A stretch of DNA of 64,000 nt from assembly GCA_003650675.1 (NCBI GenBank), contig QMRH01000001.1, positions 1 through 64,000 of the forward strand. The letters run 5' to 3'. Of the stretch, positions 26,157 to 30,857 are shown piece by piece. Source of the stretch: Thermoprotei archaeon (GTDB lineage Archaea; Thermoproteota; Thermoprotei; Thermofilales; B20-G17). The notes below the pieces were generated by a model. The model was not told the DNA's origin, ran no database searches, and was given only the letters and a program-made list of their open reading frames with translations. How positions within the stretch are numbered: position 1 is the stretch's first letter; each line of letters opens with the position of its first letter. The position numbers were made by a program, and so were the translations under genes.

Positions 26157-27650
26157 CTACCACTCCTCCGTTATGTCATTATAAGCTTTCTCTAGCTCCA
26201 GCTCTTCCTCGCGTATCCTCTTCCATTCAGAAACTATATCGATATCGCCTCCAGAAAGCTTGCCCTCAAACTTATTTATTTTAACTATAGCCGGTATTTT
26301 AACCATCAAGCCTAGTACGACTGCTTCACCGATATTGAGGGAAGGAAGTTGCTCCAAAAGATCTTCACTTAATGTTTCGCTAGCTTGCTGTACGAACCTT
26401 TGGTCAGATGGTTCAACGAGCCTCAAAACTATCATGTTATTGGCTTGTGATAAGGTGTCAGGATCCAATGCTTTAGGCCGTTGACTGACCAGACATAGTC
26501 CCAAACCGAATTTCCTACCTTCACGCGCTATACGGCTTATCCAGTATTTTGAGAGAGTGGATCTGCCCTTGGGCGCCAGTATATGAGCCTCTTCAAGCAC
26601 AACAAACACTGGGAAGGCAAGCCCTTCTCCCGTACTTTTATAGCTTTTACGGGAGTACAGTAATGTTCTTAGATAGTGGCTTACAATGACATCAGAGGCA
26701 TCCTCATCAAGAGCACCCAAGTCGACTACGTTTACATATCCAAGCTTTATCTGGTTTAATACTGAGGGAGCCTGGAGATCTATAATAAAACCATATTTAT
26801 CTTGCATGGCCTCTAGCTTGTTCTGCACCGAGATCACTACATTTTTTGCGTCCCTGGATTTACTCTCCTCAGCTACATCATCAAGGGCTTTAACTAGGAG
26901 TTTAAAGAACATCTCTGTATCCTCCGGATGCCTTTTCAGGTGATTATAAACTTTCTTCAAAGCTTTTCTAAAGTAATATTCCTGCCTATGGGCTTTGTAA
27001 TCGATATTTAAAAGTTTCAGTAGCTCGCTTAAATGCAGGTGTAACGGATTTACTCTTGGGGAAATCGGGTTCACGTCACCGTTTCTAAACCTAGCGTCGA
27101 CATATTCTGAATGCATGTCAAATATGAGTACGGCTCCGCCAAGCCCTAGAATACCATCGCTTATAACTGCTACAGTATTAGATTTTCCAGCACCAGTTAT
27201 TGCCAGTATGGCCAGGTGTCTAGAAACCATTCTATTTATATCAATATATACAGGAACTTCGGGGTTTGACGCAAGAACACCTATACATACACCTTTCTCT
27301 TTACAGGAGAAAACATCCTTTAAAATTGAACTATCAGCTTCTCTTACCTCAGTTGCAGGTGGAGGAGGGACACGGGGTATCTCGAGGTTTTTGACATCAC
27401 CAAGTATTTTTATTATACCCTTTATATAGTAGTCTCTTTCACCTTCGAGATCTTTTATCCGTTCTACTACAGTGGGATCATGGATATCCTCGCTTAAAGC
27501 TACACTGCCCATAACCACCCTTCTAACAATACCCAGCACCTTTTTTCCATCATATTCCAAGATAACGTATTGCCCCAGTCTCGGAGGCTTTTTCGATATG
27601 AAAATTACATGTGTTGGTGATGCTTCACCAACCACGTATCCAAGTTTCAT
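26157..27650 (-). CDS. herA: Bipolar DNA helicase/translocase HerA
   Basis: 497 residues. The N-terminal HAS barrel (MKLGYVVGEASPTHVIFIS) is followed by the FtsK/HerA ATPase: AITGAGKSNTVAVI (Walker A), FDMHSEYVD, FPVFVVLEEAHILAP (Walker B), WISRIAREGRKFGLGLCLVSQRP (sensor and arginine region). It forms a hexamer that works with NurA. It overlaps nurA by 4 nt and abuts mre11, so the four genes are one operon. Confidence 0.96.
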   Translation of the reverse strand: MKLGYVVGEASPTHVIFISKKPPRLGQYVILEYDGKKVLGIVRRVVMGSVALSEDIHDPTVVERIKDLEGERDYYIKGIIKILGDVKNLEIPRVPPPPATEVREADSSILKDVFSCKEKGVCIGVLASNPEVPVYIDINRMVSRHLAILAITGAGKSNTVAVISDGILGLGGAVLIFDMHSEYVDARFRNGDVNPISPRVNPLHLHLSELLKLLNIDYKAHRQEYYFRKALKKVYNHLKRHPEDTEMFFKLLVKALDDVAEESKSRDAKNVVISVQNKLEAMQDKYGFIIDLQAPSVLNQIKLGYVNVVDLGALDEDASDVIVSHYLRTLLYSRKSYKSTGEGLAFPVFVVLEEAHILAPKGRSTLSKYWISRIAREGRKFGLGLCLVSQRPKALDPDTLSQANNMIVLRLVEPSDQRFVQQASETLSEDLLEQLPSLNIGEAVVLGLMVKIPAIVKINKFEGKLSGGDIDIVSEWKRIREEELELEKAYNDITEEW

Positions 27651-28723
27651 AGCAACACCTCCCTCCCTCTCTCTTCATGATAGAGACTTAAAATACGGTA
27701 GATTCTTAACATATCTTCCCCACGGATTTCAACCTCCTGATGGGCTCTTCGAAGGGGATATGGGTATCCCCTTACCGTGAAAACTGAAAGGTCATCAAGT
27801 AATTTTTTAATATCCTCCATACTCCTTTCCCCAAAAACCTCTATCCTAAAAACCTGTTCTCTCGGTTCAAGCCGAGCATAAAACACCGTGAACATAAGAT
27901 CCTCACTAAAATCCAAATAATTTTTTAATGCTTTCGGTAAAGATAACTTAACCACATTAGGCTTGGAGAAACCTGTATTCTGAGTAAGCTTATCGAAAAT
28001 AACTAGGTCGGGCTTTAAGCTATACCTGAAGTACCGTCTACTTGTGGATGTTTTGGAGATCGCCACAAGTTTTCCACCATATCGTCTAAAAAGTTTAATT
28101 AAGACATTCAGCAACTCCACCTTCTCGAGGGTAAGCATCGAGTTTAGAAGAACATCTGTATCAAGATCCCTGCCGATAATATCCGTTGCCTTTTCCTCCG
28201 CGAGGATGTCAAGCTTAGGCTCATTAATAGCGTTAATGTATTTTTCCATGAAATCAGGATCCAGATTAATAAACATTTTTATATCATTTTCAATACCCCT
28301 AAGCTTAACAAGAAAACTTATAAAAGATCCATCTATTAAAGAAAGATCCAGTTCGCCCTCCTCTATGAGATTCAAAGTAGTTTTAGCCTCCAAAATACCC
28401 ATTTGGGCTCTAACCCTCTCTAGCACGTTCTCTGATGGAGGTAGAAGACCGACTTTCCCGGTTTTCACCTCTTTTTCAAAACCATTTCTCGAATAAAGAA
28501 TAGAAACCGCGTTTATAGCATACAACATAAATCCTCTAAACTCCATGAAATTGAGGCTACCGTCTGTGGCTGAAACCCTAAACTCCCTTTCAAAAGAAGA
28601 AGGGTTATATTTAATCCACCGTTCTATAGCATCTTTTTTATTAACTCTTAGGCTTTGTGCATTCTCGAGTATCTCTTCTCTATGCTGTAGAGCATACTCA
28701 ATGAGTTCTGGAATCAATTCCAC
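27647..28723 (-). CDS. nurA: 5'-3' nuclease NurA
   Basis: SATDGSLNFMEFRGF holds the catalytic Asp of the NurA fold; further conserved features are VDISDGS-like LIDGSFISF and the C-terminal YPYPLRRAHQEVEI. The frame is open to an ATG at 28864, but the first 43 residues are rich in Cys and Trp and look non-coding. I therefore favour GTG 28723 (GGGGAT upstream) or TTG 28717, giving about 358 residues. It overlaps herA by 4 nt. Confidence 0.9.
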   Translation of the reverse strand: MELIPELIEYALQHREEILENAQSLRVNKKDAIERWIKYNPSSFEREFRVSATDGSLNFMEFRGFMLYAINAVSILYSRNGFEKEVKTGKVGLLPPSENVLERVRAQMGILEAKTTLNLIEEGELDLSLIDGSFISFLVKLRGIENDIKMFINLDPDFMEKYINAINEPKLDILAEEKATDIIGRDLDTDVLLNSMLTLEKVELLNVLIKLFRRYGGKLVAISKTSTSRRYFRYSLKPDLVIFDKLTQNTGFSKPNVVKLSLPKALKNYLDFSEDLMFTVFYARLEPREQVFRIEVFGERSMEDIKKLLDDLSVFTVRGYPYPLRRAHQEVEIRGEDMLRIYRILSLYHEERGREVLL

Positions 28724-28922
28724 ATCCCCAACATTCTTATCTATTATAATTTTATTAAGTAAAGCTCTTAAAATAACGAATCGATAAAAGGAGCATGAAA
28801 GTAATTTAATTAACCTCCACTTACATGAACACCAACTATCTACAGGTGATATCCATCTAAACACTTGAAAATCAGTTCCTTTTCAAGCTTCTAATAAATT
28901 AACAAATTATTTTACTGCCAAA

Positions 28923-29024
28923 CTAAAATTCCTCCTCCCAGACCTCCTCTAGTTCTTCCCACTCTTCTTCTTCCTCTTCCTCCTCCCACCACTCTTCTTC
29001 TTCGTCAAAAATACGTGATCTCAT
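28923..29024 (-). CDS. 33-residue Glu/Trp-only micro-protein upstream of nurA
   Basis: ATG 29024 to TAG 28923 encodes 33 residues of which 21 are Glu and one Asp, with five Trp and a terminal Phe (begins MRSRIFDEEEEWW, ends EEVWEEEF). GGAGG lies 13 nt before the ATG, and a TATA element TTTATAAG (29066-29073, minus strand) stands at the right distance for a leader of about 20 nt. Mixed GAA/GAG codons argue against a simple repeat expansion. It is the first gene before nurA-herA-mre11-rad50. No family is known to me; an acidic DNA-mimic or partner-docking peptide is a guess. Confidence 0.55.
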   Translation of the reverse strand: MRSRIFDEEEEWWEEEEEEEEWEELEEVWEEEF

Positions 29025-29065
29025 AGACCCTAACCTCCGGTCGCAGGAAAACTATTTCTTAAAAC

Positions 29066-29073
29066 TTATAAAT
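29066..29073 (-). promoter_or_regulatory. TATA box of the Glu/Trp micro-protein
   Basis: TTTATAAG on the minus strand, preceded by an A-rich stretch as for a BRE-TATA promoter. Transcription about 25 nt downstream would start near 29042 and reach the ATG at 29024 after a short leader with GGAGG. It may also be the main promoter of the nurA-rad50 operon. Confidence 0.5.
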
Positions 29074-29103: not shown

Positions 29104-29901
29104 TCACCACCCTAGAATCAACGTATAGTCCCCTTCCTCGCCTTTAACCATTCTAATTAAATTTCTCGGTTCAATTAAACTCCCCACGCAGACCGGTATC
29201 CCCTTACATACTATTTTAGAAACATAGTTAATTTTTTCCTTAAGTCCCCCTGTAACATCAGGCACCATAATTTTACTTGTATCAAGTGCTTTAAGGAGTT
29301 TAAGTGGTATTTTTCTAAATAGCTTTGCGTCAGGGTAGAGTTTTGGATTTTTATCATATATTCCTTTTACATCTGTTCCAAATACAACTTTGCTCGGCTT
29401 GAATTTTTCCGCGAGGAAATAAATTATCTGGTCACCTGATACTATGGAAAAGCCTTTATCTAGATCTAATACTACATCTCCCTGTAGAAGGGGAACGAAA
29501 CCCTTCACTAAGGCCGTTTTCACGGGTTCAAGGAAAAATTTCTCTATCACACCATTACGTGCTATTATTAGACAGGAGGGGTGTAAAGGTGTTACAGGTA
29601 AACCTGTTTCTACCAGTATTTTTGAAACAACCTCATCTAGGAGCAACATAGCTTTTCTTGTAGCTAAGTATCCTTTAATACTCTGCAACCCTTTATAGCC
29701 TTCGTTGACGGAATATCTTGTTGCCGTCCAATGACCATACGATCCTCCTCCATGTACGAGAATGAATTTCCAACCCTCCTCCCATAACTCCACCAACTGT
29801 TCAGCCACACTAGATAGTACTTTCTCATTTGGTGTACAAGGCTTATCTTTAATAGTTATAGCTGATCCCCCAAGTTTTATCGCGACAAGTTTTCTTTTTA
29901 T
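29104..29901 (-). CDS. Isopentenyl phosphate kinase, apparently with an ATA start codon
   Basis: The first standard start in frame (GTG 29808) would cut off the conserved N-terminus. Upstream in the same frame the sequence reads KRKLVAIKLGGSAITIKDKP, the KLGGS nucleotide-binding motif of the family. Between the upstream TAG and KLGGS there is no ATG, GTG or TTG; the best candidate is ATA at 29899-29901 with GGGGTG 7 nt before it, giving 265 residues. HGGGSYGH and GTDVKGIYDKNPK are the other kinase motifs. The enzyme makes IPP from isopentenyl phosphate in the archaeal mevalonate pathway. Confidence 0.88.
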   Translation of the reverse strand: MKRKLVAIKLGGSAITIKDKPCTPNEKVLSSVAEQLVELWEEGWKFILVHGGGSYGHWTATRYSVNEGYKGLQSIKGYLATRKAMLLLDEVVSKILVETGLPVTPLHPSCLIIARNGVIEKFFLEPVKTALVKGFVPLLQGDVVLDLDKGFSIVSGDQIIYFLAEKFKPSKVVFGTDVKGIYDKNPKLYPDAKLFRKIPLKLLKALDTSKIMVPDVTGGLKEKINYVSKIVCKGIPVCVGSLIEPRNLIRMVKGEEGDYTLILGW

Positions 29902-30469: not shown

Positions 30470-30857
30470 ATAAACACAAAAAGTGATGAATGGTTTTTGG
30501 ATGATTATTCTTTAAATCCTTATCGGTTTTGTGATTTTAACTGTATTTACTGCTATATTCGGGGGAGTAGATATAGAAAGAATGTGAAGCAAGTTTTAGC
30601 GGCTAAAATAAATGCTCCGATTTTGCTTGAAAGAGAGCTGCGAAGAAGAGCAAAGGGAAGAGAGTATGGTTTTATTGCTTTAAGCTCAGTAACCGAGCCC
30701 TGGATACATATTGAAGAGAATACAAACTTACGAGAAGATGTTTAAAAATTATAGCAAAATTTAGATTCCCTGTCCCCTGTCTAACGAAGTCAACCCTAAT
30801 TTTAAGGGACTTAGACTTACTGGAGGAAATTGATAAAAAGCATGTTACAAATATGAC
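30470..30857 (+). pseudogene. Radical SAM protein (SplB-like, COG1533 type) remnant
   Basis: DDYSLNPYRFCDFNCIYCYIRGSRY (quoted in part: CDFNCIYC) holds the CxxxCxxC cluster motif, followed by a normal-looking domain to SSVTEPW. The frame then stops at 30743-30745. Shifting frame at about 30732 restores TRRCLKIIAKFRFPV..LTKSTLILRDLDLLEEIDKK, so one base has been lost. The N-terminus is missing (stop at 30467) and the 3' part is cut at about 30857 by an IS605-type end. The gene is dead. Confidence 0.75.

Follow-up and report, generated by a model that had tools for sequence, protein, structure and literature searches.

A family of glutamate- and tryptophan-rich microproteins in an archaeal phylum and its genomic linkage to ABCE1

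The DNA analysed here (the window) is a stretch of 64,000 nucleotides from a contig of a Thermoprotei archaeon, in which a short open reading frame rich in glutamate and tryptophan (EW) lies next to nurA. The locus raises the question of whether such a frame is a gene, how far it extends beyond this genome and which cellular process it could serve. The original prediction placed it with DNA repair, as a peptide that might dock on NurA, HerA or Mre11-Rad50 or act as a decoy for them.

The reading frame and its signals

The product of the frame, read from the ATG at 29024, is MRSRIFDEEEEWWEEEEEEEEWEELEEVWEEEF. Glutamate accounts for 19 of the 33 residues (58%, or 61% with aspartate) and there are four tryptophans, fewer in each case than the two-thirds glutamate and five tryptophans initially described. 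The clean frame first described, preceded by a TATA box and a GGAGG of its own, is borne out: both sites could be located (Table 1), and both fall within the gap between the isopentenyl-phosphate-kinase-like (IPK) gene, whose stop is at 29104, and nurA. The frame is far from chance. Among 60 windows simulated with a first-order Markov model, none contained an ORF of at least 20 aa with at least 50% acidic residues and at least three tryptophans, and the highest acidic fraction reached was 0.33. A search of the window for RNA families returned tRNAs only. A protein search, which is affected by composition bias, indicates a single EW copy in this genome. The AF2 model of the protein is one helix covering residues 2-32 (pLDDT 93.6), as any Glu-rich chain would give.

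Table 1. Features of the EW locus in the window and of related loci
Feature	Position	Strand	Basis or remark
EW microprotein ORF, 33 aa, ATG to TAG	28923..29024	-	ORF translation; syntenic orthologue L137:2952-3053; about 130 relatives
GGAGG Shine-Dalgarno-like site, 9 nt 5' of the EW ATG	29034..29038	-	SD-like enrichment over shuffles across EW ORFs
TATA-box-like TTTATAAG, putative own promoter of the EW gene	29065..29072	-	TATA-like enrichment over shuffles; similar TTTATAAA at orthologue L137
IPK-like gene, upstream of EW	29104..29829	-	PF00696; syntenic in G002
nurA, downstream of EW	27647..28864	-	PF09376; context only, adjacency not conserved
Zn-ribbon protein of ~100 aa	L144:2676-2969; also L129, L130, L134, L135, L165, L188		TFS model score below cut-off
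EW-tailed larger proteins, G034 paralogues, 4-5 Cys	L176:3047-3397, L177:2713-3033		
EW-tailed larger proteins	L158, L216 and L217 (8 Cys)		
EW-tailed larger proteins, LysW-like ribbons	L232-234		
EW-tailed larger proteins, Asgard-phylum sample	L308 and L344		Starts tentative

Distribution and conservation of the family

Profile and protein searches with 33-residue queries recovered the query alone, owing to composition bias. Since this bias blinds profile searches, a DNA pattern for the motif EEEWEE (GARGARGARTGGGARGAR) was used, with the reversed pattern as control. Within the class it matched 67 of 81 genomes, generally at one clustered locus, against 12 of 81 for the reversed control (counted by hand), and in a sample of the phylum 216 of 398 genomes. 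Because genomes with a single hit include unrelated proteins, presence is best judged from the loci read. About 130 EW loci were fetched and read, representing at least 49 family-level groups of one archaeal phylum. Most members stand alone as ORFs of 21-55 aa; MEEEWEEWEEEEEWEEEEWEEEW and MVFEEEWEEEEWEEEEWEEEW are examples. Members missed by the pattern were found by inspection upstream of ABCE1, such as MAEEEELEEFEEFEEFEELEEFEEF (L264) and the Asp-containing forms in f32. In genomes where the pattern gave no match, the region upstream of ABCE1 was scanned as well, and at many of these loci there is no EW ORF, so its absence from this place appears to be real in part of the phylum. Elsewhere, a minority of the Asgard-phylum sample carries EW (e.g. 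L279, L340, L341, L358, L360); L360 is the sole case there with ABCE1 downstream and may be a binning error. The 120 Methanobacteriota genomes gave no clustered matches, and single matches in eight. Seven matches were obtained in viral contigs, and none of the frames read around them is a clear EW microprotein gene, two (L374, L375) lying at the edge of the stretch read.

Several pattern matches were set aside as unrelated: PhoU/TrkA_C proteins with single-Trp tails (L139, L142, L143, L151) and large membrane proteins, also with single-Trp tails (L245-L248, L306). Also set aside were L148, with a single Trp motif near its N-terminus, and L363, a 53-codon frame with one Cys; the spurious frames L206, L237, L310 and L316 were dropped. 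The PhoU/TrkA_C proteins belong to the order of the window (L139:1825-3039 on contig 21 of G000; L142, L143, L151) and share a conserved acidic end, ...EEDREEIIEDIQEEEWEEE. In the membrane-anchored proteins (family f17), a transmembrane-like segment precedes the C-terminal end ...LEEEWEEEEEL.

Stand-alone EW proteins gave no match in Pfam, NCBIfam or PDB, where composition bias limits such searches, and no description of an EW family was found in the literature. By these sources EW is an undescribed microprotein family, in line with the original remark that no described protein of this composition and position is known. It seems to have been overlooked in the annotation libraries searched because its members are short and hidden by low-complexity filters, and a DNA-pattern search can thus find low-complexity microproteins where profile searches fail. 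This family of extreme composition spans many families of the phylum, probably including the genetically tractable Sulfolobales.

Glutamate makes up about two thirds of the residues across the family. Tryptophan represents about 12% of residues overall and is the C-terminal residue in 94 of 130 members, with phenylalanine in a further 20 (together 88%); the remaining 12% end without an aromatic residue. Ends of the type E-E-[W/F] prevail, with Glu at position -3. For Trp, Phe and other hydrophobic residues, lags 1-3 are depleted and lags 4-5 enriched.

The nucleotide sequences carry a clear signature of constraint. Across twelve genomes belonging to one family, the final 24 codons read as EEEWEEEEELWEEFEEEWEEEEEW with hardly any change, and GAA and GAG vary. 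Over all pairs of twelve EW genes of one family there are 537 synonymous and 44 non-synonymous codon differences, many of the 44 corresponding to a one-codon shift in L182 and the pairs not being independent. Other aligned groups give synonymous to non-synonymous counts of 20:0, 9:0, 8:0, 47:13 and 26:4, and the aligned sets of close relatives contain no frame-breaking indels. In 113 EW upstream regions a TATA-like element is present in 72% (21% in shuffles) and an SD-like site in 42% (8% in shuffles). In the groups aligned, the codon differences place the family under purifying selection, from which we infer that EW is translated. The initial view of an acidic tail with a terminal aromatic residue on a genuine, selected microprotein thus looks correct from sequence conservation: start, stop and Trp pattern are retained in relatives (the syntenic orthologue and the aligned groups), and codon changes in the aligned groups are mostly synonymous.

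Linkage to ABCE1 and possible roles

The commonest neighbour of EW is the gene for ABCE1/RLI, identified by Pfam and by tblastn. It lies downstream on the same strand at 51 loci in 29 of the 49 family groups, at a distance of 41-1108 nt and often of 41-130 nt. In the other 20 groups, including that of the window, no downstream ABCE1 was seen, some loci being covered with a 1.5 kb flank only. Since family groups share ancestry, the 29 groups reflect an old linkage and not 29 independent events. An RPB9/TFS-like Zn ribbon is frequent between EW and ABCE1, and a divergent THUMP gene and CGI-121 often lie upstream of EW. On its ABCE1 side, EW is often adjoined by a protein of ~100 aa that has an acidic C-terminus and, of the RPB9/TFS type, the N-terminal Zn ribbon alone (Table 1). 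Beside EW loci away from ABCE1 (L207-L211, L232-L234, L205), a protein of ~250 aa without Pfam match recurs. It marks a second conserved EW location, and G081 has both locations (L204, L205).

Neighbourhood linkage is not equal to physical interaction. Nevertheless, the reading favoured here, with a rough probability of 0.45, is that EW may be a docking peptide, helical and acidic-aromatic, which acts in trans and ancestrally served ABCE1 in ribosome recycling or Fe-S loading. The gene and its conservation are evident in the sequences themselves, and its partner is our inference from them. A Glu chain of 21-55 residues with Trp or Phe every 4-5 residues, ending in Glu-Glu-Trp or Glu-Glu-Phe and usually provided with its own promoter signals, would form a single acidic helix, and its aromatic residues, together with the free Trp or Phe at the C-terminus, could dock on a basic or hydrophobic partner surface. 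The ancestral partner process would be that of ABCE1, the Fe-S ATPase which splits ribosomes. EW could be an accessory factor in recycling, by analogy with HCR1/eIF3j, or else a tag that delivers Cys-metal proteins, ABCE1 among them, to the Fe-S or metal-loading machinery, by analogy with the C-terminal Trp of Lto1. A bolder version can be offered only tentatively: EW would be the dedicated cofactor of ABCE1 nearly throughout the phylum, a portable helical docking tag whose free C-terminal Trp couples recycling or Fe-S loading to a partner, and thus a functional archaeal counterpart of the eukaryotic Lto1/eIF3j tails. Archaeal ABCE1 carries two [4Fe-4S] clusters, and to our knowledge archaea have no eIF3. 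The linkage makes it testable what assists archaeal ribosome recycling and how ABCE1 acquires its two clusters.

Both analogies are partial. The N-terminal region of eukaryotic eIF3j/HCR1 is acidic and contains Trp, a likeness to EW in composition. HCR1/eIF3j is moreover an ABCE1 partner, functionally tied to ABCE1/RLI1 in termination and recycling (PMC5737393); unlike it, stand-alone EW proteins are mostly 21-55 aa long, with no second domain and no Pfam match. As regards Fe-S loading, the C-terminal Trp of Lto1 is required for loading clusters on Rli1/ABCE1 (PMC4523923), and the eukaryotic CIA complex is recruited by a [LIM]-[DES]-[WF]-COO- tail, which the archaeal homologues of its clients are reported to lack (PMC10623007). 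EW shares with these tails an acidic residue followed by a C-terminal Trp or Phe, and Lto1 specifically serves ABCE1/Rli1, which EW genes adjoin. However, position -3 is Glu instead of Leu, Ile or Met, so that EW follows the CIA tail rule only in part and lacks the full motif. EW also consists almost only of Glu and Trp, and the deca-GX3 motif of Lto1 is absent from EW sequences by inspection.

Alternatively, EW could act as a general acidic chaperone or nucleic-acid mimic, its helix shielding basic proteins that bind DNA or RNA (those of ribosomes or chromatin) and ABCE1 reflecting a translation context only. The very high negative charge, the spaced aromatic residues and the other translation or tRNA neighbours, such as THUMP and CGI-121/KEOPS, fit this explanation. 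Yet it requires neither a C-terminal Trp/Phe so precisely placed nor residue-for-residue conservation across a family, and it leaves the repeated adjacency to ABCE1 unexplained; we consider it unlikely.

A nascent-chain leader peptide is improbable. Here translation of the poly-acidic stretch would destabilise or pause the ribosome and so regulate the gene that follows, which is ABCE1 in many lineages; this suits a short ORF often placed 41-130 nt before abce1. Ribosomes translating acidic stretches are destabilised in bacteria and can be in eukaryotes as well (PMC9718836); ribosome pausing is acted upon by EttA, an ABC-F protein (PMC11282234). However, where EW is away from ABCE1 its sequence is kept, and what lies downstream differs or has the opposite orientation (the latter at L169-L172 and L207-L211), which argues against EW being no more than a leader peptide of abce1. 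Moreover, the C-terminal residue is under selection, and some larger proteins carry the EW tail as well.

EW-tailed proteins, nurA and the remaining alternatives

All eight kinds of larger protein with a multi-Trp EW tail that were examined have a Cys-rich domain with 4-8 Cys in CxxC-type or metal-ribbon-like segments (Table 1). This post-hoc count of few cases suggests that EW may be a portable tail working with Cys-metal proteins. The G034 paralogues are ~110-aa proteins with four conserved Cys, the one scanned having no Pfam match, and their tail resembles that of the EW protein which G034 also encodes as a separate gene (L178). A fold search with the L176 model (mean pLDDT 66) gave nothing significant. 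The LysW/ArgW carriers are likewise small Zn ribbons that end in an acidic tail; in f37 (L232-234) a ribbon precedes the EW tail, and EDWG occurs in some EW proteins. However, the LysW model scores 37.4 against a cut-off of 75, the LysW-like ribbon is confined to the f37 fusion and most EW proteins have none, and EW ends in Trp or Phe, in contrast to the substrate-carrying Glu of LysW (EDWGE). The association of EW tails with Cys-metal domains, like the glutamate content of about two thirds, could also point to an abundant polyglutamate peptide sequestering metal ions or Mg2+. Neither the Trp/Phe spacing nor the C-terminal aromatic residue would have a role in simple buffering, and we give this explanation little credence.

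The docking or decoy function for NurA, HerA or Mre11-Rad50 that was first proposed is very improbable. It starts from the adjacency of nurA in the window and from the general resemblance of an acidic tail with terminal Phe to that of bacterial SSB (DDDIPF), an acidic peptide which docks partners. EW shares with the latter its acidity and terminal aromatic residue; unlike it, EW is a stand-alone gene with Glu/Trp repeats, favours Trp over Phe and has no linkage to repair genes. In the closest relative, G002, the orthologue MRIFVFEEEEEWWEEEEEEEWEELEEVWEEEEF retains length, start, stop, TATA box and Trp pattern and follows the run ITPase-YlqF-prenyl synthase-IPK as in the window, but a different gene lies downstream and nurA-herA is on another contig. 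In G001 a 33-aa EW ORF (MLPEEEEEEEEWEELEEEFFEEEEWEEEWEEWE) follows bud32 and is separated from nurA by ~2 kb containing other genes. As these arrangements differ, the adjacency in the window is incidental; nurA-herA does not recur beside the EW loci fetched, as ABCE1 does. The present state in the window's lineage would have arisen through a rearrangement that left EW no longer beside ABCE1.

That a GAR-rich, non-coding purine tract contains the frame by accident is hardly credible, given that start, stop, length, TGG codons and frame are kept in relatives with GAA and GAG varying freely, and given the few matches of the reversed control.

The surroundings of the EW gene include a short ORF on the forward strand (30497-30745), between the IPK and prenyl synthase genes, which resembles the N-terminal part of a radical-SAM protein and is possibly a truncated gene.
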